Virus record (IMG/VR): IMGVR_UViG_3300025102_000072
Location: 1 to 43,269 of that record
DNA length: 43,269 nt
Reading direction: 5' to 3' (one strand)
From: a virus
The stretch's first letter is position 1; each line of letters opens with the position of its first letter. The position numbers and the translations under genes were made by a program. The notes beneath the pieces were generated by a model that was not told the DNA's origin, searched no databases, and saw only the letters and a program-made list of their open reading frames with translations. Shown here one piece after another: positions 3,589-43,162 of this stretch.

Positions 3589-3858
3589 ATGTATAGAGAT
3601 AAAGCAATAGAAATAGCAGATTTGTTAGAAATTAAAGGGGAAGCTTATGCTAGTCCAGATGTTTTCTTTGAACAATTAGCAAACACCTGGAACAGCATGC
3701 TTGGTGCTAATTTAACACCGAGTCAGTGTTGCGCCATGATGCTGGCTTTTAAAGCTTGCCGGATGGTGAACAATCCAAACCATAAAGATACAGCAGACGA
3801 CATGGTAGGATATAGTTTGATACTTACTGAACTTGTTAAAGCACAAAAGAATGACTAA
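3589..3858 (+). CDS. DUF6378 family phage protein
   Basis: An 89-residue, mostly helical protein. The order of features matches a widespread phage family that I know as DUF6378: an N-terminal helix, a segment ending FFEQLANTWNSMLG (about 26-39), LTPSQCCAMMLAFKACRM (about 42-59), then a short NPNHKDTADDMVGYS motif (62-76). Members are small phage proteins often near replication or nucleotide genes; their biochemical role is not known to me. The gene follows the hairpin at 3516-3577, has no visible Shine-Dalgarno site, and overlaps the next gene by 8 bases, so the two are probably translated together. Confidence 0.65.
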   Translation: MYRDKAIEIADLLEIKGEAYASPDVFFEQLANTWNSMLGANLTPSQCCAMMLAFKACRMVNNPNHKDTADDMVGYSLILTELVKAQKND

Positions 3859-4573
3859 CGAAATAGAATACGAACTACAGGTTTTGCCAGCTGCATTAAT
3901 GATGCAACATTTTCTTGATGATGATACTGTATTGCGTCTAAATAACTACTTAGATGTATTAAAAAATGATACAGCTAAAACATCAGCTGGTCCTGACTTA
4001 GTGGGTCAAATACATCAAGGCGAACAAATAATAATGGATTACAACGCCGCAATACTAAAACCTTTTGTTAGTATAGTAGAAAGCTTGGGCCTTGCTTATC
4101 TACGACATTTCGTGGAACAAACTAAAACTCCTCTAGTCTCCAAGAAAATCGACGTTGATAAGCTATGGTCCGTCCATAGTTATGCGGGTGACTATAATCC
4201 AATTCACGACCATTTAACGACATCACCAATGGGTATATCTTTTACTTGTTGGACCAAAGTACCACCACAAATCAGCGAGCTGAATGATGATACAAATATC
4301 AGCTTATACGACAGCTCTGGAGCCATAGACGGCTTTATAAACTTTACCTATGGTTTGAACCAAAGCAAAGACCCAGAGCGCTTAAGACCACCTCAACAAG
4401 TTATGATTAAACCAGAGGTAGGCAAACTATTATTATTTCCCTCTTGGATGCAACATTGCGTCTATCCGTTTAAGGGTGAGGGAGAAAGAAGAACCGTTGC
4501 TGGCAATCTTAATTGTCACAGCATAACCAAAAATGAATTTGAGGAAATACAAAATGAAACCAGGAATATATGA
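3851..4573 (+). CDS. 2OG-Fe(II) oxygenase-like protein (paralogue 1)
   Basis: A 240-residue protein with the double-stranded beta-helix pattern of 2-oxoglutarate/iron oxygenases. WSVHSY (106-111) precedes GDYNPIHDH, whose H119-D120-H121 would supply metal ligands; a distal H202 lies in PSWMQHCVYPF and R213/R214 in GEGERRT would hold 2-oxoglutarate. Members hydroxylate proteins, nucleic acids or small molecules; the substrate is unknown. The ATG at 3851 overlaps the end of the preceding gene and is preferred to an upstream in-frame TTG at 3833. Its closest visible relative is the gene at 42455-43162, which has nearly the same core motifs. Oxygenases of this type are frequent auxiliary genes in marine phages. 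Confidence 0.75.
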   Translation: MTNEIEYELQVLPAALMMQHFLDDDTVLRLNNYLDVLKNDTAKTSAGPDLVGQIHQGEQIIMDYNAAILKPFVSIVESLGLAYLRHFVEQTKTPLVSKKIDVDKLWSVHSYAGDYNPIHDHLTTSPMGISFTCWTKVPPQISELNDDTNISLYDSSGAIDGFINFTYGLNQSKDPERLRPPQQVMIKPEVGKLLLFPSWMQHCVYPFKGEGERRTVAGNLNCHSITKNEFEEIQNETRNI

Positions 4574-6660: not shown

Positions 6661-7374
6661 TTAGTCTAAGGAATGGTATAAATCTACAGTTTTTTGCTTA
6701 TCGCATAGCCAGAAAACCAATAAGTATCTGTCTCCACTTTCTACTGGTAGGCCTTTATGTAGATTATTAAAGCTAGGAAACATGAGCGCATGTCCTGTAG
6801 GTAAAGGCGGGACCTCGCCGTAATTATGAAATGCAGTGCCACCACCTTCATACTTACCAGTATTCAATGGGACTACCACAGATATATCTGCTGATTCATC
6901 GTGATGCCAGGCACCTTGTTTTTTATCTTTAAGATTATAGTTTGCTATTTGTATAGATGCAGGGTCTCTACAATCTCTTTGCCATATTGCATTAAAGATA
7001 GGATTTAAAACAGATTGAACTACAAACCACATGGTCCTATATAGTTCAGGTACTTGTTCTTTTAAAACAATTTCTGGTATTTGTCTTAAAGTGTCCTCAT
7101 CATCATTGCCAGCAAACTTTATTTCTTTTTTCATTTGTTCTATTTCTCTTAACAACATCGTACAGAAATGTCTGCGAAACAAAGGTACTTTATAAATATC
7201 TGGATATATTTTTTTTACTATATCGTGCGCTGGTGTTTGTTCCATATCTTTCAAACCCATAGCTGCTTTGTATTTAACTATATGCGGCAAGGTATCTTGA
7301 ACCGCTTGATAAGTTGTATGGTTAATCATCCAATGTGATTGCATACTTAATAGATAGTTTTTCAGTTTATACAT
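6661..7374 (-). CDS. 2OG-Fe(II) oxygenase, prolyl-4-hydroxylase-like
   Basis: A 237-residue protein whose C-terminal half carries the classic 2OG/iron oxygenase signature: H157 and D159 of the HxD motif in WHHDESADIS, followed by GGGTAF (177-182), the distal H206 in NNLHKG and R216 in GDRYLLVFW. The N-terminal 130 residues are helical and unassigned. It is a different family branch from the two other oxygenase-like proteins in this window. It would hydroxylate an unknown protein, nucleic acid or small molecule. It is transcribed alone, away from the ribbon-helix-helix gene; a TTGGAC-N17-TTTATA promoter candidate lies in the divergent gap. Confidence 0.8.
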   Translation of the reverse strand: MYKLKNYLLSMQSHWMINHTTYQAVQDTLPHIVKYKAAMGLKDMEQTPAHDIVKKIYPDIYKVPLFRRHFCTMLLREIEQMKKEIKFAGNDDEDTLRQIPEIVLKEQVPELYRTMWFVVQSVLNPIFNAIWQRDCRDPASIQIANYNLKDKKQGAWHHDESADISVVVPLNTGKYEGGGTAFHNYGEVPPLPTGHALMFPSFNNLHKGLPVESGDRYLLVFWLCDKQKTVDLYHSLD

Positions 7375-22452: not shown

Positions 22453-22866
22453 TTACCTTTTTCCGCCTTTTGCTCTGTACTTAGTACCTTTCATACCACC
22501 ACCGCCAGCTCTGTACTTAGTACCTTTCATACCACCACCGCCAGCTCTGTACTTAGTACCTTTCATAGCACCACCGCCAGCTCTACCGCTTACTGGTCCT
22601 TTTGGCTTGCCTTTGGCTCTTATAGACGCGGCTCTTGCTGCCACACCTATGGGTCCGCTTGCAAGCGTCAAAGCAACTTTACCTGTTCTCTCAAGCGCAT
22701 TAACGACTGATTTAGGCATTTTACCCATACCTGGATTAGCTTTCATTTCTGATTTTGCTGCTCCACCCAGGGACATATATTTAGTGCCTTTCATAGCACC
22801 ACCTTTAGCCATGTACTTGGTGCCTTTCATGCCGCCACCTTTAGCCATGTATTTAGTTCCTTTCAT
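22453..22866 (-). CDS. Basic repeat protein with MKGTKY repeats
   Basis: A 137-residue strongly basic protein. Three MKGTKY repeats lie in the first ~30 residues, three more in the last ~40, each in a 12-residue Gly-rich unit, flanking a helical middle (about 35-90) with a hydrophobic segment. GGAAGGAGA selects the ATG at 22866. It is the last of four consecutive small basic genes; such proteins in marine phages may bind packaged DNA, or bind membranes through the Gly-rich repeats. Function unknown. Confidence 0.6.
   Translation of the reverse strand: MKGTKYMAKGGGMKGTKYMAKGGAMKGTKYMSLGGAAKSEMKANPGMGKMPKSVVNALERTGKVALTLASGPIGVAARAASIRAKGKPKGPVSGRAGGGAMKGTKYRAGGGGMKGTKYRAGGGGMKGTKYRAKGGKR
22472..22579. 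repeat. Three tandem 36-bp coding repeats
   Basis: Units starting GCTCTGTACTTAGTACC begin at 22472, 22508 and 22544, exactly 36 bases apart and nearly identical in sequence, with a partial fourth start at 22580. They encode the C-terminal MKGTKY repeats of the basic protein. Near-identity at silent positions points to recent expansion or gene conversion. Three diverged units encode the N-terminal copies at about 22760-22866. Confidence 0.7.
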
Positions 22867-22867
22867 A

Positions 22868-23167
22868 TTATCTCCTTCCAAATAATCCCATATTTGAATT
22901 TTTAGTTATTTTACCACCTTTTGCGGCAAAAGTTTTTACATTTGTTGGCTTACCACCAACGCCTTGTTTTTTAGCTCGTTTACGACTTACTGCTGATTTT
23001 TTTTCTGATTTAGTCATGCGTGCAGCTTTGGCAGCTGGCACACACTTTGGGTATTTTCTTTTAGCGTCTTTTTTTTGTTTTGACCTGCCACATTTATCAA
23101 AGCCACCACCTTTTTTTGGCGAGCCAATATCAACCCAATCTTCTTTAAACCACTTGGTTAAACTCAT
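22868..23167 (-). CDS. Small basic protein, DUF5872-like
   Basis: A 99-residue protein very rich in Lys and Arg. It begins MSLTKWFKEDWVDIG and contains KKGGGFDKCGRSK and RKYPKCVPAAKAARMT, a combination that I believe belongs to DUF5872, found in aquatic viruses. Two Cys residues (about 26 and 42) may pair or bind metal. It sits within a row of four basic genes; a DNA-condensing or virion-associated role is plausible but not shown. Confidence 0.6.
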   Translation of the reverse strand: MSLTKWFKEDWVDIGSPKKGGGFDKCGRSKQKKDAKRKYPKCVPAAKAARMTKSEKKSAVSRKRAKKQGVGGKPTNVKTFAAKGGKITKNSNMGLFGRR

Positions 23168-23169
23168 TT

Positions 23170-23646
23170 TTAACTGCTAGGCACTCTAGTTTTTTTACGT
23201 TTGCTTTGCATCATAGCTCCGCAACCTCTGCCTTGTACCATTTTTACAGCACCACCAGCTTGCATAAAACCCATTTTGTTTCTTACTTTTTTTGGTAGTT
23301 TGGGTAAGCCTTTGTTTGCAGATGGGATAGGTTTCAAACTCATTTCACCACCAGCTGCTTTTTTCTTAGCACCTTTGTATTTACCACCCATTTTTTTGTA
23401 TTCAGAAACCATGTAGGCATTTGCATAAGCCGACGGATATACGTCAAACTTCGCTTTTGCTTTAGCTTTGGCTCTAGCATAAATAGATGGATTAGCTACA
23501 TTAGCTGGTGTTTTAGATTTAGCACCACCACCTTTTTTTAATTTTAAGGCGCCTAAAGTTTTTGCTTGTTTTGCATGTAAATTACTTGCTTTTTTCAAAC
23601 CTTTTATAACTTTGTTTATTTTTTTCTTTTGTGTTTTATTAGCCAT
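23170..23646 (-). CDS. Small basic Lys/Ala-rich protein
   Basis: A 158-residue protein with high Lys and Ala content, reminiscent of histone-like tails, a middle motif YARAKAKAKAKFDVYPSAYA (about 56-75), AYMVSEYKKMGGKYKG, and a basic C terminus. No enzymatic features. It is adjacent to two other highly basic genes, suggesting a common role with packaged DNA or the virion interior (inference). Confidence 0.55.
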   Translation of the reverse strand: MANKTQKKKINKVIKGLKKASNLHAKQAKTLGALKLKKGGGAKSKTPANVANPSIYARAKAKAKAKFDVYPSAYANAYMVSEYKKMGGKYKGAKKKAAGGEMSLKPIPSANKGLPKLPKKVRNKMGFMQAGGAVKMVQGRGCGAMMQSKRKKTRVPSS

Positions 23647-23955
23647 TTAACATTTCCACCTTCTTCTTGCTTGCCTAATTCTTGAATTAGGATTATTTCT
23701 AGTTTTAGCAGAGCTTTTCTTTAATTGTCCAAGTGACCTTGCACAATAAGACTTTCGTCTTTTTGCCGCTTTGCTACCTTTTTTTACTTTACCTGTTACT
23801 GCTGTTTTTAATTTTGAGCCAGGATTTTTCTTACGATAAGCAGCAACACCTTTTTTGGTCATGCCCGCTCCACTTTTGGTGGAGCGGTAATTACCGCCTT
23901 TGCCTACTGTCTTTGCTATTGGTTTAGCTTTTCTTTTAGGCTTTTTAACCGCCAT
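23647..23955 (-). CDS. Small basic protein with C-terminal ARRRWKC motif
   Basis: A 102-residue protein with more than a third Lys/Arg. The C-terminal CARSLGQLKKSS and NNPNSRIRQARRRWKC segments match a family of small phage proteins that I believe is DUF6321, abundant in marine phages and of unknown function. It is the first of the row of basic genes. A nucleic-acid-binding virion role is plausible. Confidence 0.6.
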   Translation of the reverse strand: MAVKKPKRKAKPIAKTVGKGGNYRSTKSGAGMTKKGVAAYRKKNPGSKLKTAVTGKVKKGSKAAKRRKSYCARSLGQLKKSSAKTRNNPNSRIRQARRRWKC

Positions 23956-34950: not shown

Positions 34951-35346
34951 TTATTCTCCCCATTTTTTTGTTTTTGTCCCACCGAAATAAGGTACGGCAA
35001 GATTTTCTTTTTCAAGCAATTCAGCAATATTTCCTTTATCGCAGAATATGTCACCTAAAACTCTTCCATATTTATCTGTTCCATAAGATTTAAGTGTTAT
35101 ATCACCTACTAGCCATTCTTTCAATTTTTGTTTAGCTAATAAACCTAATTCTTTTTCTTTTGTTCTTTCTGGGTATTTTTTTATATTTATACGGCTTTCT
35201 GGTGTATCAATGCCGTTTATTCTGACAGCTTTGTTGTGTAGTTGAACAGAAAAGCCTAAATCAATAGTTTCCAATCTTACTGTATCACCATCAGTTACAG
35301 ATTTTAGTTTACATTTATATACAAATGCTTCTGGTGAATTACTCAT
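34951..35346 (-). CDS. Staphylococcal-nuclease (thermonuclease) homologue
   Basis: A 131-residue SNase-type nuclease. The active-site residues align as D21 (TDGDT), R42 (VRINGIDTPE), D47, E50 and R95 (GTDKYGRVLGDIF). It lacks a signal peptide in the chosen frame. Phages of marine bacteria often carry one in the lysis or late region, where it may degrade host DNA or process DNA. It begins inside the outer spanin gene (ATGA overlap) with GAGGAG eight bases upstream. Confidence 0.85.
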   Translation of the reverse strand: MSNSPEAFVYKCKLKSVTDGDTVRLETIDLGFSVQLHNKAVRINGIDTPESRINIKKYPERTKEKELGLLAKQKLKEWLVGDITLKSYGTDKYGRVLGDIFCDKGNIAELLEKENLAVPYFGGTKTKKWGE

Positions 35347-35728
35347 TTTCTTGCTCCTCAGTTGTAGTTACTTTTCTATAATACACCACTACATCTTTAA
35401 GTTCAGTGATATACCTTTTGATTTCTTGCATGTTGTATGCCATAACTTCGTAGTCAGGAATAGTCATAGCAAGAAATACTAACTCTCCCTCTTGTTCTTC
35501 TATAAAGGCTAGTTGTTGTTCGTAGTTTTCAGGTGTAACCACAATCCATAAAGGCTCTTGCAAGTCTATTTCTCTAGGCATAATAGGTTGTACTATTTTC
35601 CTATCTATAGGTTTTGCTGATACTTCTATTTTTTTAGTCGGTATCAGGCTGCAACTGTAAACCATCATCAAGGCCATCAACATCACTGCTGATTTGCTCA
35701 ATGTTTTCCATAATATGTTTTGTTCCAT
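35339..35728 (-). CDS. Outer-membrane spanin-like lipoprotein
   Basis: A 129-residue secreted protein. A signal peptide with hydrophobic core (VMLMALMMV, 15-23) ends in a lipobox-like VYSC with C26, so the mature form would be tethered to the outer membrane. The rest (IVQPIMPREIDLQEPLWIVV and ITELKDVVVYYRKVT) is a pattern I recall from spanin outer subunits in marine phages. It begins inside the inner-spanin gene in another frame (95 bases overlap), as Rz1 lies in Rz. Together they would fuse the two membranes at the last step of lysis. Confidence 0.7.
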   Translation of the reverse strand: MEQNILWKTLSKSAVMLMALMMVYSCSLIPTKKIEVSAKPIDRKIVQPIMPREIDLQEPLWIVVTPENYEQQLAFIEEQEGELVFLAMTIPDYEVMAYNMQEIKRYITELKDVVVYYRKVTTTEEQENE

Positions 35729-36032
35729 TATTTATTTTCCTCTGCATTTCTACTGGGTCTGCTAGTATCTTTTCAGCTAATTCATAGTTTTGTATAAATT
35801 TTGTGTATCTGGAAAGTTCTTTTTGTGCTTCTTGGCTTTTTACAACAAGATTATTCATTTGTTTTGTTTGTAATTCATAGTCGGCTTGTATAGATTTAAT
35901 TGTTGCTTCTTGTGTGGCTATAGCACCTTCTAAAACTACATTATTAGCTTTCAGAGTTGAGTTTTCTTGATATAGCCAATAACAACCCATGCCTAAAACT
36001 AAAATTATACCTATGAATATTTGTTGCATCAT
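35634..36032 (-). CDS. Inner-membrane spanin-like protein
   Basis: A 132-residue protein with an N-terminal membrane helix (IFIGIILVLGMGCYWL, 5-20) and a long periplasmic coiled coil (about 24-95) with Gln/Lys/Glu heptads. This is the topology of Rz-type inner spanins. Its 3' part overlaps the lipoprotein gene. It comes right after the cyclase gene (one base gap). Known Rz proteins bind Rz1 via their C termini to link the envelope after lysozyme action. Confidence 0.7.
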   Translation of the reverse strand: MMQQIFIGIILVLGMGCYWLYQENSTLKANNVVLEGAIATQEATIKSIQADYELQTKQMNNLVVKSQEAQKELSRYTKFIQNYELAEKILADPVEMQRKINNGTKHIMENIEQISSDVDGLDDGLQLQPDTD

Positions 36033-36033
36033 T

Positions 36034-37785
36034 TTAAACTGTCCATATTTGTAAAGCCTTTGTTTTACCTTTAACTTTTATAGGTTTTGGTAATTTTAAT
36101 ACATTTTTACAATTTTTTGCAGTATTTTTACCAATTAAGATGTCAACACCAGCTTCTTTTGTTGCAGACTCTAATCTTGCGGCTACATTTACCGCATCAC
36201 CAATAGCAGAAAAATCAAACCTTGTATCAGAACCCATATTACCTATTACTGCTTCACCAGAATTTACACCTATGCCAATAGCTATCGGTTCTGGTAAATC
36301 TTTTTGTAGCTGTATGATTGCAGTACGCATATCTTGAGCACAAGCTACTGCTTTTTTTTCGTGTTCATCTAAATCTAATGGTGCTCCAAATATTGCCATA
36401 CAAGCATCACCTATAAATTTATCCACCATACCACCATGTGCCTGTATGCAAGTAACTTGTGCAGTTAATACTTTATTCATTATGTCTGTTACTTGTTCAG
36501 GCTCTAATTTTTCAGACAAATTTGTAAATCCCCTGACGTCGGTGAACAAGAACGAGCAATATTTTTTTTCGCCTCCAAGTTTTAACAAATTAGGATTATC
36601 TTGTAATTTTTTGACTTGTCGTGGGTCAAGATAGTGTTCAAACTGTTTTTTAATTTGCAGTCTTAACTTGAACTGCTCTCTAAATCTTATATAAAATGCT
36701 GTGGTGCCAGTAATAAACTGTGATATTAAAGACCAGGTAACATCAACAAGTAAGTTTGTTTTTATAAGGTAATATCCAAGAGAGCCAGTAGAAACCATAA
36801 TACTTAAGCCTAATATAATTCCCCATGTAATGCCAAAACGTATTAAAACAAGCCATATAAGGCTAACTGTGACTAAAAATATAACAAGTTCTACTGCTAT
36901 TGCCCAATCAGGTATAAAAGGACTGTCTTGTATAAGTATGGACTCAGCGAGTGCTGCTTGAATCTTGTGTGGTTCTAGTAATCCAACTGGCGTGGCTACT
37001 TGTGGCATTACTCCATTAGCAGTAACACCTACAAAAACAAACTTACCATTTACGTCCATTTCTTGTAAATCTGTTTGTGGTGTATCAACCCAACTAATCC
37101 ATTTGCGACCAAAACTATCAGTTTTAACAGGTGGTATTCCTCTTATTGATATTTCTGATATTCCATTATCATTAGTTTTTATAATATAAGTTTTAACATT
37201 AAATAAAGCTTTATATATTTGTGTGCCAAAACTAGGAATCCACTCGTTTTCAGGGGTTTTTACTAAAAGAGGTATTCTTCTAACAAGTTGGTCTATGTCA
37301 GTGGGAGCAATGGCTAAACCCTGTAATGTATTATTTTTTAGAGTGTTCAGGTTTTCCTTAACTCCCAAAGATACTATACCACCATTATCATCACCCATGA
37401 CAACTGTGCCAGTTGATTTTGGATATTTACCCTGACCGTCCTCAAACATAGCTATTACGGATGGAGCGTAGCCTAAAGACCTTGCAAAATCTTCATCACC
37501 TCCCATCCTATCTGCTTGTGGAAAACTAATAACCCAGCCAACGCCAACAGCACCTTTACCTAATATTTCTAGCTGTATTTCAGCTAATCTTTGTCTGGGT
37601 AAAGGCCAACCACCTTCACGTTCCACATCTTCTTCGGTAATATTCAGTATAACAAAGTTGCCTGACTGTTCTGGTGTTTTTACCAATGCATCAAAAGTTT
37701 TAAGTTTTAGTATTTCTGTTGGCGTGCTTTGAAATAATAATGGTAAAGACAGTGTTATAAGTAGAGGTAATAATAATCGTTTCAT
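36034..37785 (-). CDS. CHASE2-domain class III adenylate cyclase
   Basis: A 583-residue membrane enzyme. A signal-anchor (5-19) leads to a periplasmic CHASE2 sensor (about 28-290, with FDALVKTPEQSGNFVILNI and WPLPRQRLAEI), then three membrane helices (about 294-315, 319-340, 346-365), a linker, and the cyclase domain (about 405-583). D416 (FTDVRGF) and D460 (FIGDACMAIFG) are the metal ligands; K456 (VDKFIGD) and D524 (FDFSAIGD) form the adenine-recognising pair; N533 and R537 are the transition-state residues. It should make cAMP in the cytoplasm on a periplasmic signal. In bacteria CHASE2 cyclases and FecR-domain proteins are, to my knowledge, frequently neighbours, as here. Unusual in a phage. 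Confidence 0.88.
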   Translation of the reverse strand: MKRLLLPLLITLSLPLLFQSTPTEILKLKTFDALVKTPEQSGNFVILNITEEDVEREGGWPLPRQRLAEIQLEILGKGAVGVGWVISFPQADRMGGDEDFARSLGYAPSVIAMFEDGQGKYPKSTGTVVMGDDNGGIVSLGVKENLNTLKNNTLQGLAIAPTDIDQLVRRIPLLVKTPENEWIPSFGTQIYKALFNVKTYIIKTNDNGISEISIRGIPPVKTDSFGRKWISWVDTPQTDLQEMDVNGKFVFVGVTANGVMPQVATPVGLLEPHKIQAALAESILIQDSPFIPDWAIAVELVIFLVTVSLIWLVLIRFGITWGIILGLSIMVSTGSLGYYLIKTNLLVDVTWSLISQFITGTTAFYIRFREQFKLRLQIKKQFEHYLDPRQVKKLQDNPNLLKLGGEKKYCSFLFTDVRGFTNLSEKLEPEQVTDIMNKVLTAQVTCIQAHGGMVDKFIGDACMAIFGAPLDLDEHEKKAVACAQDMRTAIIQLQKDLPEPIAIGIGVNSGEAVIGNMGSDTRFDFSAIGDAVNVAARLESATKEAGVDILIGKNTAKNCKNVLKLPKPIKVKGKTKALQIWTV

Positions 37786-38904
37786 TTAATCACTTTGAGT
37801 GATAGTAATAACACTATCGCTGCCTCCATTTATTTTGACAACGTTAGATATACCATCTTGTATTAATATTACTGTATAAGCGTTAGAGCCGTTTAAGTCA
37901 ACTCTTACACTTTCATTTACCTCTCTTCGCATACTTATTAAATTACCTGAAATTAGAGTTGTTATTTGTGTTTCGGGGTCTTTGCCTAATAAAGTGCCAG
38001 ATATTTGTGTGCTAGTTGCTTGTGCTAAAGCATCCTCATCTTCATCAATAGCTAAAGCATCTAGTACATTAAGTAAGTCTTCAAGATAATTAACGTCAAG
38101 ATAATTAATATCTAATTCTGTAAATTCTAAACTATCTTCTTTCAAATAATCTTCTGCAAGATAGTCTATGTCTAGGTCATTAAAATCTAAAACGCTATCA
38201 GTTTGAGTGTTAGTAACTTCTTCTTCTGCGATAATTTGTTCTTTAGGCGGCGTTACAATTAACATATTATCAATAACATCTAAAGTTAAATCTAAAATCA
38301 CAGGTTTTGTAGGAGCTGATTCAAATACACTTACTGTAGTAGCTTCATAAGGTTTGTTCAATATTACTGTCCCCATTGCTGTAACCACTTCTATTTCGCC
38401 ACTAGACAAACCAAAAGCATCTGGCAAAAGAATAATTAGACTACGCCCAAGTTCGTCAACTGTAGCCGTAAAATCAGTGCCACGAATAGCTATGTTGGCT
38501 GTAGGTGTTTTTAAAGTAATGTTTTGTTTGTCTATGCGATTTAGATTGCCTGTTATAAATCTAGCCGTGCCAAGTCCAAAGGTAAGAGCCATCTTTGATT
38601 TGCTTGGGTCAGGGTCATAGATATATTCATCAATTAAAAGCTGTGAATGTTCTGTAAGCTTTACAGTAGAATCATCAAGAAATGTAATGGCCATACGACC
38701 ATTTGTTGTTATGGCTTCATCGTTGCTTTGTATCGCAAACTTTAAATCTGCATCGTATGGCTTATCTCTAACAATTTGTGCCGAGCCATTTAGTTCAGAT
38801 ATGTCACCTATATCAACAGCCTGTGCTTGTACCTTGGTCGTTTTGAATGACACAAACAGTAGAAGCAGAAGTGCCAGAAATGGATATAATTTTAAGCCAG
38901 TCAT
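37786..38904 (-). CDS. Secreted FecR-domain protein with curlin-like C-terminal repeats
   Basis: A 372-residue secreted protein. A signal peptide (1-29, hydrophobic core LALLLLLFVSF, cleavage near AQA) is followed by a FecR domain (about 45-180) with SNDEAITTNGRMAITFLDDS (60-79) and the family signature TPTANIAIRGTDF (133-145). An acidic Leu/Asp/Tyr repeat segment (about 239-293) follows. The last ~34 residues (338-371) carry alternating Asn/Ile/Gln and Asn/Gly spacing like curlin repeats (GSNAYTVILIQDGISN and on). It may sense or anchor the curlin-like product and signal through the cyclase next door. The start at 38904 lies inside the upstream gene but supplies the only signal peptide. Confidence 0.8.
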   Translation of the reverse strand: MTGLKLYPFLALLLLLFVSFKTTKVQAQAVDIGDISELNGSAQIVRDKPYDADLKFAIQSNDEAITTNGRMAITFLDDSTVKLTEHSQLLIDEYIYDPDPSKSKMALTFGLGTARFITGNLNRIDKQNITLKTPTANIAIRGTDFTATVDELGRSLIILLPDAFGLSSGEIEVVTAMGTVILNKPYEATTVSVFESAPTKPVILDLTLDVIDNMLIVTPPKEQIIAEEEVTNTQTDSVLDFNDLDIDYLAEDYLKEDSLEFTELDINYLDVNYLEDLLNVLDALAIDEDEDALAQATSTQISGTLLGKDPETQITTLISGNLISMRREVNESVRVDLNGSNAYTVILIQDGISNVVKINGGSDSVITITQSD

Positions 38905-39547
38905 TGTCTTGGGTACTCAGTTGTTGAATATTAAATGTTCTTGAACCTCCGGTATGGTCTAACCAAAAATATCCGCCTGCTGATGCTGTGGCTCCTGTAC
39001 CTGTATAAGTAATTGTATTGTCAGAACCATCTATGTCCATGTAGTTGGTTGCTCCATCAATATTAATATTTGATGTCACTGTGTTGTTAGAACCTTGAAT
39101 AATCCAATCTAAATTTAGATTTGTAGCTAACGCGCTTGTACCTTGATTTAAAGTAAACGTGTTTCCACTGCCTGTGACATCTACATTTTGGTCTGAGCCA
39201 TCAGAACTATAAGTATTACTAGGGTCAACTTGAATAGTAAAACTATTTGTTCCACCATCAAACTCATAAAACCCTGTGAAATTGTCTGCCCAAATATCAC
39301 CTAAAAATTTATTAGTTGCACCAATCATATTAATATCTAGTGTCATACTATTTCCGTCTAAATCAAAAGCATTAACACTGCCAGCAGTTGAGTTTAACCC
39401 ACCAATAATATTAGATATACCTAGTTGCTCTAGGTCTATATTTGCACCAGTACCAGACTGGTCTACATATATTTCGTTATCAGCCGCGTACATTGTCGAT
39501 GCAGTCAGCATCACAATCAGGCTCATCAATTTTAGTTTCTTCATCAT
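38813..39547 (-). CDS. Curlin-like secreted repeat protein
   Basis: A 244-residue secreted protein (signal peptide 1-21, cleavage near MYAAD). The mature part consists of repeated strand motifs rich in Asn, Gly, Ser, Thr, Ile and Gln (IYVDQSGTGANIDLEQLG, NMIGATNKFLG, VTGSGNTFTLNQG, IIQGSNNTVTSNINIDG), the amyloid-type spacing of CsgA/CsgB curlin repeats. It ends with C232 and C244, perhaps a disulfide. AAGGAG nine bases upstream and in the end of csgG chooses the start. Immediately after csgG, it is the likely cargo of the CsgG/CsgF pore; the repeats are not identical to E. coli curli, so fibre formation is inferred. Confidence 0.7.
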   Translation of the reverse strand: MMKKLKLMSLIVMLTASTMYAADNEIYVDQSGTGANIDLEQLGISNIIGGLNSTAGSVNAFDLDGNSMTLDINMIGATNKFLGDIWADNFTGFYEFDGGTNSFTIQVDPSNTYSSDGSDQNVDVTGSGNTFTLNQGTSALATNLNLDWIIQGSNNTVTSNINIDGATNYMDIDGSDNTITYTGTGATASAGGYFWLDHTGGSRTFNIQQLSTQDNDWLKIISISGTSASTVCVIQNDQGTSTGC

Positions 39548-40385
39548 TTAATTCTACTCCTTGGTTATTATTTTGTAAAATCCAGAAACCCTTTTCATAA
39601 CCATCATTTACGATTTCTAGCACACCTCCTTCTATAGCTTTCATTAAAGCTATGGTTGATGACTCATTTCTTGCGTTACCCATTTCTACTTCCACTAGCT
39701 CGGTTCCAGCCTCAATAAACTTAAATATGTCCTCAGATTTGCCGTAACTAAATATGGTCTTTTGACTTAATACTTCTAGTAAAACCTCGCCTGTAGCAAC
39801 AGAAACCATACGTAAACTTACAGTTATGTTGTCTTCTCTGTATTGAACACTTTTACCAACACCTAAATACCTAGCACCAGAACCACCACTTTCTAAGTTA
39901 GATTCATAAGAAATAACAGCTCCCTCAATTAAAATGCCAGCAAATAAAAGCGGTCTAAGAGCTTTGTTTTTTTCTTCTTCGTCTGTTGATTGTTCTCTAG
40001 CACTACGTATTAGCTGTCTTTCCTTGGTTAGGTTGTCTAGTCCTACTCGTTCAACTACCCTAAAAAATTGACCATTACCAGCGTGTTTCAAAGCTCTAAT
40101 AAGTAAAGCGTTTGGTTGTTGTGTTATAGCTGTACTAAATAAAGCAAATTCGCTGTTGCTTTTTCTTTGTCCTGTTTGGTCTGTAAAGGACGCAGGATAG
40201 ACAGCAACTACAGGACTTATTTTTGGTATAGGCACATTTTTAAGCTCTGTAGATTGTAAGTCTTGAATATTTACAACATTATAAGCAGAAAACCTATGCT
40301 CATAAGTGTCTTCAAGTTGGTCAAATGTAGAACAACTAGAAAGTAAAAGTACCAATAGGTATAGTAATTTCGGTAACTGTGCCAT
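39480..40385 (-). CDS. csgG: CsgG, curli secretion pore lipoprotein
   Basis: A 301-residue CsgG homologue. A signal peptide with lipobox LLSSC makes C18 the lipidated residue. The core aligns closely with E. coli CsgG: AVYPASFTDQTGQ (61-73), FSTAITQQPNALLIRALK (83-100), RVVERVGLDNLTKERQLIR (109-127), ILIEGAVISYESNLESGGSG (151-170), ARYLGVGKSVQY (171-182), LRMVSVATGEVL (191-202) and ALMKAIEGGVLEIVNDGYEKGFW (246-268). CsgG is a nine-subunit outer-membrane channel that exports curli subunits. A C-terminal acidic tail has two Cys (C291, C295). It overlaps csgF (50 bases) and the curlin-like gene. Confidence 0.93.
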   Translation of the reverse strand: MAQLPKLLYLLVLLLSSCSTFDQLEDTYEHRFSAYNVVNIQDLQSTELKNVPIPKISPVVAVYPASFTDQTGQRKSNSEFALFSTAITQQPNALLIRALKHAGNGQFFRVVERVGLDNLTKERQLIRSAREQSTDEEEKNKALRPLLFAGILIEGAVISYESNLESGGSGARYLGVGKSVQYREDNITVSLRMVSVATGEVLLEVLSQKTIFSYGKSEDIFKFIEAGTELVEVEMGNARNESSTIALMKAIEGGVLEIVNDGYEKGFWILQNNNQGVELNDEETKIDEPDCDADCIDNVRG

Positions 40386-40848
40386 CTGCTTCGGTTATTT
40401 TTAGGGTTAGTGTCACACCGTCGCTTGTGTACTCTATTGTATTACCTTCTAAAGTGATGGTGCCAGAGCTTTGTGGTGTTTCACCAAAAAGATTATTAAC
40501 TAACTGTCTTGATAGCTCTGCATATACTCTTGATTCAAGGTTACGCATAAATCTTGCAAGTGTAGAGTTTTCTTTTTCTCTTTCTATCTCATCTTGTAAG
40601 GCTTTTATTTCTTCTTTAAGTGTAAGTTTACGAGTGTATTGTTGGTTTTCTATTGTAAGATAATGACTTGATGTTCCTATGCCATTAAAACTAGGAGACT
40701 TGAATTTATGTACTATTTGGTCAGCTGCTAAATTCATTCCAATTACAGTTAAAAACATGATAACTCCAATAAGAAACAGCCATGTTGCTATTTTAGTTTT
40801 TACTATTTCTTCTTGGATTTTTTCTTGTTTTGTCATTCTCTTTTTCAT
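40336..40848 (-). CDS. csgF: CsgF-like curli assembly factor
   Basis: A 170-residue protein homologous to CsgF. Residues 47-56 (HKFKSPSFNG) match the N-terminal CsgG-plugging peptide of mature E. coli CsgF (FRNPNFGG); ELSRQLVNNLFGETPQSSG (111-129) and TLTLKITEADGTVTEITIPI (146-165) match its C-terminal helix and strands. In place of an ordinary signal peptide there is a charged ~20-residue leader and a hydrophobic segment (21-40), with a possible signal cleavage near LAAD. A helix with heptads (about 75-95) is extra. CsgF caps CsgG and helps place curli subunits. It precedes csgG and overlaps it. An internal ATG at 40836 is an alternative start. Confidence 0.85.
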   Translation of the reverse strand: MKKRMTKQEKIQEEIVKTKIATWLFLIGVIMFLTVIGMNLAADQIVHKFKSPSFNGIGTSSHYLTIENQQYTRKLTLKEEIKALQDEIEREKENSTLARFMRNLESRVYAELSRQLVNNLFGETPQSSGTITLEGNTIEYTSDGVTLTLKITEADGTVTEITIPIGTFTF

Positions 40849-41068
40849 TTAACTCTAATACAGTGTTAACTTTCTGTTGTAATCGTATCATATCTTGGTC
40901 TAACAGGCGAAGTTGGTCAGTGAGTCTTATAATTGTTTTTTGCATTTCACTTACAGCAGGTTCTACTGTTTTAGTTACTGTCACCCAAACATAATAAACA
41001 AAATATCCCAAGCCAATTACCATAACAGTAGCAAAACCAAACTTTTCAATTAACGCCACTACATCCAT
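40793..41068 (-). CDS. Single-pass coiled-coil membrane protein (holin-like, paralogue 2)
   Basis: A 91-residue protein. It starts MDVVALIEKFGFATVMVIGL, has one membrane helix (about 12-33) and a cytoplasmic or periplasmic coiled coil (about 36-75) with a basic C-terminal tail (KTRKNPRRNSKN). It is a paralogue of the protein just upstream (MDAFDLIEKVGLP). The architecture resembles BhlA-type small holins and phage XhlA-like proteins. TAATG couples it to the previous gene, and its end overlaps csgF. Confidence 0.55.
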   Translation of the reverse strand: MDVVALIEKFGFATVMVIGLGYFVYYVWVTVTKTVEPAVSEMQKTIIRLTDQLRLLDQDMIRLQQKVNTVLELNEKENDKTRKNPRRNSKN

Positions 41069-41361
41069 TAGTCTCTTCTAGCGTCTATTTTTCCATCTTC
41101 TACAAAGTTTTCTGCTCTCGCAATTCTATCTAAGTCAGGTGCTAAATTTAAAGCACTAGAAACACTTGTATCAATACGTATCATATCGTTATTCATTATT
41201 GATGCTCTGGTAATAAGCATCTTAGCTATTCCTTCTACTGTTTTGATTTTGTTGACTAGACCAGTCATCATTTGTTTCATAATCAGGAATATAAAATATC
41301 CCATAATTAAACCGCTTGCTATTGGCAATCCGACCTTTTCAATAAGGTCAAAAGCGTCCAT
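41068..41361 (-). CDS. Single-pass coiled-coil membrane protein (holin-like, paralogue 1)
   Basis: A 97-residue protein with an N-terminal helix, one membrane segment (about 11-28, SGLIMGYFIFLIM), and a long polar helix. It shares the start (MDxxxLIEKxG) and the layout with the next gene, so the two are probably tandem duplicates. Candidates for holin or antiholin with the neighbouring small membrane proteins. Confidence 0.55.
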   Translation of the reverse strand: MDAFDLIEKVGLPIASGLIMGYFIFLIMKQMMTGLVNKIKTVEGIAKMLITRASIMNNDMIRIDTSVSSALNLAPDLDRIARAENFVEDGKIDARRD

Positions 41362-41747
41362 TAGTTATCTTCGCCTTTAAATCCTTTTGATGAATTTGTT
41401 GTACCTGCATATAAACCAAACCAAGCAGCGCCAGCACCTACGACTATTGATATAAGTCCTGATTGTTCAAAACTTGGCTCTGGTAAGGCCATAAACCATA
41501 TTGTGCATTTGTAAAGAAGAACTATGTAAACAGTTAAAAACATTCTTGGAAATATTCTCCAGGAATCTACTGCTTTTGCTAAGTGAATCCATCTTTGGTG
41601 AGGATTAACTTTGTCATCTGCTTCTAAATCTCTAATTTTATCTTTGAGTTCTGATATTTCTTGAATCATAGCCATAAACTTATTTAAGTCCATTTCTACT
41701 TCATTTCTATCCATGTCGCCACCAAATCTGCCGCTACTATCGTTCAT
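41361..41747 (-). CDS. Putative holin, two membrane helices
   Basis: A 128-residue protein with an N-terminal polar helix (about 14-48), RWIHLAKAVDSWRIFPRMFL, then two membrane helices (about 68-90 and 97-115, with SIVVGAGAAWFGLYAGT). I recall this family in marine phages annotated as holin or membrane protein. It could form the cytoplasmic-membrane hole for the lysozyme. It is TAATG-coupled to its neighbours. Confidence 0.6.
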   Translation of the reverse strand: MNDSSGRFGGDMDRNEVEMDLNKFMAMIQEISELKDKIRDLEADDKVNPHQRWIHLAKAVDSWRIFPRMFLTVYIVLLYKCTIWFMALPEPSFEQSGLISIVVGAGAAWFGLYAGTTNSSKGFKGEDN

Positions 41748-42454: not shown

Positions 42455-43162
42455 TTAATTTACCTCGCTACTAGCATTTTCATTTATTATATCAAAACAA
42501 TTAAGGTTTGACGCTATGGTTCGTCTTTCTCCTTCACCTTTGAAGGGATAGACCATGTGTTGTAACCAAGAAGGGAAAATTAATAACTTTCCTACTTCTG
42601 GGGTCATAACAAATGATTGAGCTGGTTTTAATCTTTCACCGTCTATAACTGATACTTGTCCGTATTGAAAAGCTATACAGCCGTCTGAGTGTCCGCTTTC
42701 ATTATATAAAGAATAAGTTGGTGATTGAGCATTAACATTACCTATTTGTGGTGGTACTTTAGTCCAGGCTGTAGTTGATATGCCCATAAGTGTTTTAGTG
42801 CCGTGGTCATGTATTGGGTTGTAATCACCATCGTAACTATGCACTGACCAGGTTTCGTCTATCTGGACTTGTTTATTACCTTTAATACTATTACCCGAAG
42901 CAGCAAAATGATTAATATACTCAGCACCAAGGTTACAGATAAAATTATTATACTCAACCATTCTTTTATCATTGTGGTCTAAAAGTAATTGTTCTCCTTT
43001 ATCTATTTGTCCTACTAAAGTATTAGCTAATGATTGTTTGTTTTTATCATGCCTATACTCATCCATATAATCATTAACATCATCAATCATATCTTGTGGC
43101 ATTTGTGTTTCTAACACATATACCGCAGGCATAGTATGAATCTGAAACTCGCCTTGAGTCAT
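42455..43162 (-). CDS. 2OG-Fe(II) oxygenase-like protein (paralogue 2)
   Basis: A 235-residue protein closely related to the one at 3851-4573. It shares WSVHSY-x-GDYNPIHDH (105-120; H118, D119, H120), TKVPPQI, PEVGKLL-x-FPSW (188-199), QHMVYPFKGEGERRT (201-215; H202, R213, R214) and NLNC (219-222). Same class of 2-oxoglutarate-dependent enzyme; substrate unknown. It is upstream of the lysis/envelope block and cotranscribed with it. Confidence 0.75.
   Translation of the reverse strand: MTQGEFQIHTMPAVYVLETQMPQDMIDDVNDYMDEYRHDKNKQSLANTLVGQIDKGEQLLLDHNDKRMVEYNNFICNLGAEYINHFAASGNSIKGNKQVQIDETWSVHSYDGDYNPIHDHGTKTLMGISTTAWTKVPPQIGNVNAQSPTYSLYNESGHSDGCIAFQYGQVSVIDGERLKPAQSFVMTPEVGKLLIFPSWLQHMVYPFKGEGERRTIASNLNCFDIINENASSEVN

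Follow-up and report, generated by a model that had tools for sequence, protein, structure and literature searches.

A CHASE2-containing class III adenylate cyclase encoded in a marine virus record appears to be the active inner-membrane output enzyme of a phage-borne relay from the outer membrane to the cytoplasm, a reading to which we give a probability of roughly 55%. The window, by which we mean the whole stretch of DNA analysed, is a 43-kb IMG/VR virus record taken at its full length of 43,269 nucleotides. Seen in sequence are all parts of the relay, the catalytic set, the membrane topology, a fixed linkage, purifying selection, and, in bacteria, the pairing of FecR with CHASE2. A curli module of phages that includes FecR and an adenylate cyclase was already published in 2022 (PMC9599517), so the window is a further member; what is added here to the published gene and module is the CHASE2 type of the cyclase, its pairing with FecR, and the apparent lack of a receptor.

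The large terminase of the window is 58-62% identical to those of HTVC023P, HTVC027P, and 023Pt_psg01, and by this sequence measure the window belongs to an HTVC023P-type pelagiphage, marine and related to the viruses of SAR11. Both HTVC023P and HTVC027P have SAR11 HTCC1062 as their isolation host; the records matching the window cyclase or CsgG include neither of them, so the module is accessory within the group. HTVC008M and Melnitz carry annotated cyclases 33-34% identical to that of the window. The phage cyclases form one clade, with support of 0.999, against an alphaproteobacterial sample, in agreement with PMC9599517. The search for a close bacterial source, a scan of GTDB, returned three contigs only, all in MAG bins and all with the phage-type cassette; one of them also has spanins, endolysin, and terminase.

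Elsewhere in the window, the structural region encodes a protein with repeated MKGTKYMAKGGG-like motifs (22453-22881), around which lie small Lys/Gly-rich proteins (22453-23955). Three genes resemble 2OG-Fe(II) oxygenases (3833-4573, 6661-7374, and 42455-43162), with a Pfam basis for 42455-43162 alone; 3833-4573, near the opposite end of the record, resembles it by eye.

A probable receptor-type adenylate cyclase

The cyclase gene is an uninterrupted open reading frame of 583 codons with an ATG start (Table 1). Its product matches the Pfam families CHASE2 over residues 14-306 (E 3e-27) and Guanylate_cyc over residues 408-578 (E 1e-20), both far over cut-off, and a score of 74.6 bits against a curated cut-off of 21.9 makes it a member of PF00211. 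The topology comprises a transmembrane (TM) segment at residues 2-18, a periplasmic CHASE2 domain at about 14-306, further TM segments at 295-316, 318-342, and 350-382, and the cyclase domain at 408-578, so that CHASE2 lies between the first TM segment and a three-TM bundle, as in CHASE2 receptor cyclases. An AlphaFold2 model built on 56 phage sequences (mean pLDDT 86) shows an N-terminal helix, an alpha/beta periplasmic CHASE2 domain, three membrane helices, and a cyclase fold. The cyclase domain can be aligned to 52 distinct PDB sequences, and as modelled it superposes on Pseudomonas aeruginosa CyaB (3r5g) at 1.7 Å and on Spirulina CyaC (1wc1) at 1.6 Å. The reading frame, the two Pfam matches, and the superposition bear out the original prediction of an intact membrane cyclase at this locus, and the CHASE2 domain and TM topology, on a phage contig, support its description as phage-borne and receptor-type. 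Disruption of the frame in related phages, named beforehand as an observation that would count against the prediction, was not seen: the frame is open in all 83 phage homologues examined. Judged from sequence, the gene product is an intact, conserved CHASE2 adenylate cyclase and very probably an active one.

The gene is under purifying selection. In the closest, unsaturated pairs dN/dS is about 0.06-0.26 (median 0.20 over 232 pairs), and between the window cyclase and one relative (L002) it is 0.075. By region, pN/pS is lowest in CHASE2 (0.27), followed by the cyclase domain (0.35) and the TM part (0.43). A CHASE2 domain more constrained than either the catalytic domain or the membrane part indicates that the sensor itself is under selection, which is what binding of a conserved partner would predict.

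Catalytic residues and predicted substrate

Six residues had been listed as catalytic, D416, D460, K456, D524, N533, and R537, and each is present at its named position. The metal-binding Asp pair (D416, D460) and the transition-state residues (N533, R537) are those of a class III cyclase. In an alignment of the phage homologues, D416, K456, D460, and R537 are invariant (83/83), and N533 is found in 82 of 83. In class III cyclases, the residue that specifies the substrate lies seven positions before the transition-state Asn. Here that residue is Ser526, which aligns with a Thr of CyaB (3r5g) and is Ser or Thr in 82 of the 83 homologues. The choice of D524 as the specificity residue was therefore mistaken; D524 is conserved, yet Ser526 occupies the substrate-specifying site. 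With the substrate position so placed, the cyclase is by sequence of the Lys plus Ser/Thr type, class IIIb-like, and K456 together with S526 is the combination predicted for an adenylate rather than a guanylate cyclase. That Lys with Asp, Thr, or Ser goes with ATP is established knowledge of the family. A preference for ATP probably still stands as the best prediction from the Lys plus Ser/Thr pair, and the claim of an active, ATP-preferring enzyme is supported as probable.

In the Melnitz cyclase (L083:7917-9968), Ser replaces the transition-state Asn, and the specificity position is occupied by Asp. The activity of this enzyme may be different, and, given the Ser at the position of Asn533, catalysis may be altered in at least one relative.

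The curli secretion cassette

In order of transcription, the cassette encodes membrane proteins of 128, 97, and 91 residues, then CsgF, CsgG, a curlin-like protein, a FecR-domain protein, and the cyclase, with overlaps of up to about 90 bases between adjacent genes (Table 1). CsgF, CsgG, a curlin-like gene, and FecR thus stand together in fixed order, as in a phage type VIII secretion system.

Table 1. Coordinates, in the window, of the cyclase gene, its cassette neighbours, and the adjoining spanins.
Feature	Coordinates	Strand	Length (aa)	Evidence
Rz/Rz1-like spanin pair, overlapping	35339..36032 (35634-36032, 35339-35728)	-		PHROGs, E 2e-11 and 1e-11
CHASE2 class III adenylate cyclase	36034..37785	-	583	ORF, Pfam, AlphaFold2, catalytic residues
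FecR-domain secreted protein	37786..38904	-	372	Pfam FecR, E 2e-9, domain 66-151; N-terminal signal-like helix
Curlin-like secreted protein	38813..39547	-	244	Synteny; overlaps both neighbours
CsgG curli outer-membrane secretion pore	39480..40385	-	301	Pfam CsgG, E 6e-46; lipoprotein signal
CsgF	40336..40848	-	170	Pfam CsgF, E 4e-16; TM by hydropathy
Small membrane-anchored protein	40793..41068	-	91	phrog_18771; one TM
Small membrane-anchored protein, paralogous to the 91-aa one	41068..41361	-	97	phrog_18771; one TM

The linkage was counted over the closest relatives among the matches listed, so that the following figures describe this lineage. For loci found through the cyclase, FecR lies upstream in all 74 relatives with room for it, directly in 61 and further up in 13, and CsgF, CsgG, and FecR occur together in 37 of 37 loci with room. 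For loci found through CsgG, with the cyclase not used in the search, curlin, FecR, and cyclase follow CsgG in 61 of 61 with room. The module of HTVC008M and Melnitz keeps this gene order and has a further curlin ahead of the cyclase, and the 91-residue protein is also found in the myophage modules. It had been suggested that fibre assembly could be the signal for the cyclase, and this is plausible because the cyclase is fixed in a curli secretion cassette.

The FecR profile matches 46 of 46 family members. By hydropathy, the window protein has a signal-like N-terminus and no further TM segment; its AlphaFold2 model is poor (mean pLDDT 48) and was left out of fold comparison. The window curlin-like protein has no Pfam match, including to the curlin repeat PF07012 (Curlin_rpt), which does match the syntenic Melnitz proteins (E 9e-6 for the counterpart of the window protein) and, in HTVC008M, the second curlin. 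Unlike plain secreted CsgF, that of the phage begins with a TM segment, at about residues 15-46.

Three other assignments for cassette proteins were considered and set aside. The C-terminus of FecR contains QDGISN, which resembles QLGISN of the curlin-like protein, but Curlin_rpt matched none of the 46 FecR members even at E 10, profile scoring gave no better values against curlins than against shuffled ones, and the hhalign probability was 1.5%. The histidine kinase described upstream corresponds in the window to three proteins of 91-128 residues (40793-41747), each with one TM segment and no kinase family match. Judged from their sequences, the genes that precede CsgF in this lineage may not fit that description. 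A role for FecR as a ferric-citrate anti-sigma regulator fares no better, as Pfam finds neither the FecI nor the FecA family in the ten cassette proteins that were scanned, and FecR itself has the signal-like N-terminus with no other TM segment.

On the 3' side of the cyclase lie the overlapping Rz/Rz1-like spanins, a short thermonuclease-like frame recognised by eye, an endolysin, and the terminase. The spanin pair is a lysis cassette, probably outside the signalling module. This neighbourhood could instead mean that the cyclase is a sensor of lysis timing or of the envelope, and the curli pore a modified lysis or pinholin-like device; the spanins and endolysin are directly 3' of the cyclase, 60 of the 67 relatives that have room carry a lysis-type gene on that side, and it has been proposed that the CsgGF pore of phages serves in lysis (PMC9004378). 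However, late genes cluster in any case, and tail and baseplate genes, with no lysis genes, come after the module in HTVC008M and Melnitz, so the lysis neighbourhood is specific to podophages. We regard a lysis sensor as unlikely, if the best placed of the alternatives to a secretion relay.

FecR and CHASE2 genes in bacteria

The pairing of FecR with a CHASE2 cyclase is a bacterial receptor pair. Across 240 alphaproteobacterial genomes, for which 149 FecR and 150 CHASE2 places were listed, 20 of the 149 listed FecR genes lie less than 5 kb from a listed CHASE2 gene, against about 0.5 expected by a rough estimate that assumes 4-Mb genomes, an excess of about 40-fold over chance. Twelve of these 20 are directly upstream of the CHASE2 gene on the same strand, and annotated examples of FecR adjoining a CHASE2 cyclase occur in Ensifer, Shinella, and Paracoccus. 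Next to the pair in Shinella (L157:1927-13851), and likewise in Ensifer (L156), are NHLP-type bacteriocin export genes, another link of the pair to a secretion system.

A studied precedent is in Sinorhizobium meliloti, where the outer-membrane receptor NsrA is required for CyaK signalling (PMC7529298). The nsrA gene lies directly upstream of cyaK, the start of which it overlaps by a single base. Its product combines a FecR domain (66-160) with TPRs and a C-terminal barrel region; CyaK consists of CHASE2 and a cyclase domain. Removal of CHASE2 from CyaD1 gives constitutive cAMP (PMC5498481). In the phage pair, too, a FecR-domain gene immediately precedes that of a CHASE2 cyclase, and the phage cyclase domain shares about 42% identity and the same Lys, Ser, Asn, and Arg set with CyaK. 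NsrA brings its own TPRs and outer-membrane barrel. Both are missing from the phage FecR, which adjoins a separate CsgG pore; no barrel family was matched in a Pfam scan of the window FecR and its family members. With no FecR-fused barrel and CsgG as a separate pore, we liken the window to NsrA-CyaK and do not class it as one. The NsrA-CyaK pair also differs from the phage cassette in having no curli genes alongside.

In Campylobacterota, too, CHASE2 cyclases cluster with a FecR gene, together with phosphodiesterase and TPR genes (PMC9239204); the phage cassette resembles that cluster in its FecR and CHASE2 genes but has no recognised phosphodiesterase or TPR protein and adds the curli secretion genes. 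The pelagiphage type VIII secretion module (PMC9599517; PMC7029224; HTVC008M, Melnitz) has the same genes and order and occurs in the HTVC023P-type group. In PMC9599517, FecR is presented as an iron-dependent regulator, the cluster is said to include a histidine kinase, and CHASE2 goes unmentioned. In the window, by contrast, the cyclase is recognised as a CHASE2 receptor, the small upstream genes are single-TM without a kinase match, and there is one curlin-like gene where the myophages HTVC008M and Melnitz have two.

Alphaproteobacterial curli operons share CsgF-CsgG with the phage cassette, and two of the five inspected loci (L098-L102) also have curlin-like genes, but within about 9 kb none of the five has a FecR or CHASE2 cyclase gene. 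An ancestral curli operon of bacteria that already included FecR and a CHASE2 cyclase was thus not seen, and in this sample the coupling to curli has no precedent among bacteria. Read most parsimoniously, curli secretion and the FecR/CHASE2 relay are two bacterial modules that were joined in phages; it seems to have been a phage that joined the relay to the curli pore.

A proposed relay from pore to cyclase

In the relay that we favour, the infecting phage would make its own type VIII pore (CsgG/CsgF) and a curlin-like substrate. The secreted FecR protein, periplasmic or at the pore, would sense the state of the pore or the substrate. By analogy with NsrA-CyaK of S. meliloti, FecR would then engage the periplasmic CHASE2 domain and switch the cytoplasmic cyclase homodimer. 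The resulting conversion of ATP to cAMP could feed back on the cassette, on the host, or on the timing of late events.

Candidate cAMP targets in the presumed hosts

The original prediction also held that the cyclase would rewire the existing cAMP circuitry of the host, and this part is unsupported, the sampled genomes of the presumed SAR11 order having neither a class III cyclase of their own nor a CRP-like receptor. As a host sample we took 117 genomes, which may be incomplete, from the order of the MAG (titled Candidatus Pelagibacter) that holds one of the phage contigs (L084); most are 1.2-1.5 Mb, and the loci examined have a GC content of 0.28-0.29. The sample has one class III cyclase, that of the phage contig itself, the other 116 genomes having none. 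No CRP-like cAMP receptor was found in the sampled order, PF00027 matching weakly in eight genomes, in frames unlike CRP. The case for receptor absence in host-order genomes is strong, and applies to CRP-like receptors only. No phage-encoded cyclic nucleotide receptor, sought as a PF00027 protein, turned up in the 21 phage records scanned, of which many are fragments. In the Pelagibacter-titled MAG, large ABC exporter-like proteins (L088, L090) carry at their N-terminus a domain resembling cNMP-binding domains.

The missing receptor could mean that the cyclase is a passenger from an ancestral bacterial FecR-CHASE2 cassette, with a structural role only or with inconsequential cAMP. The lack of a class III cyclase or CRP-like receptor in the presumed host order, the lack of a PF00027 protein in the phage records, and the Ser of Melnitz at the Asn533 position would all fit. 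Yet the catalytic residues are invariant across divergent podophages and HTVC008M, the gene is held by purifying selection in small, compact genomes, and the cassette linkage is without exception in our sample; a passenger gene is distinctly unlikely. That the product counters a defence, or acts on a non-CRP-like host target such as a cAMP binder of the GAF or Usp type or a defence effector that senses nucleotides, would permit function despite the absence of CRP, but this is pure inference and very improbable, as no cassette feature suggests defence and a decoy nucleotide needs neither a CHASE2 sensor nor secretion partners.

For the secretion relay itself, we put forward tentatively, and with more doubt than confidence, that the phage, a lytic one, imports into bacteria without a class III cyclase or CRP-like receptor a complete and self-contained path from pore or substrate through FecR to the CHASE2 cyclase, in which cAMP would report the phage's own secretion state to a non-CRP receptor.

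Significance

Viewed as a receptor pair, with NsrA-CyaK as precedent, FecR and the CHASE2 cyclase turn from the loosely associated regulators of the published description into a testable secretion-pore sensor, and, given that pair, the missing recognisable cAMP receptor in the presumed hosts becomes a sharp question.
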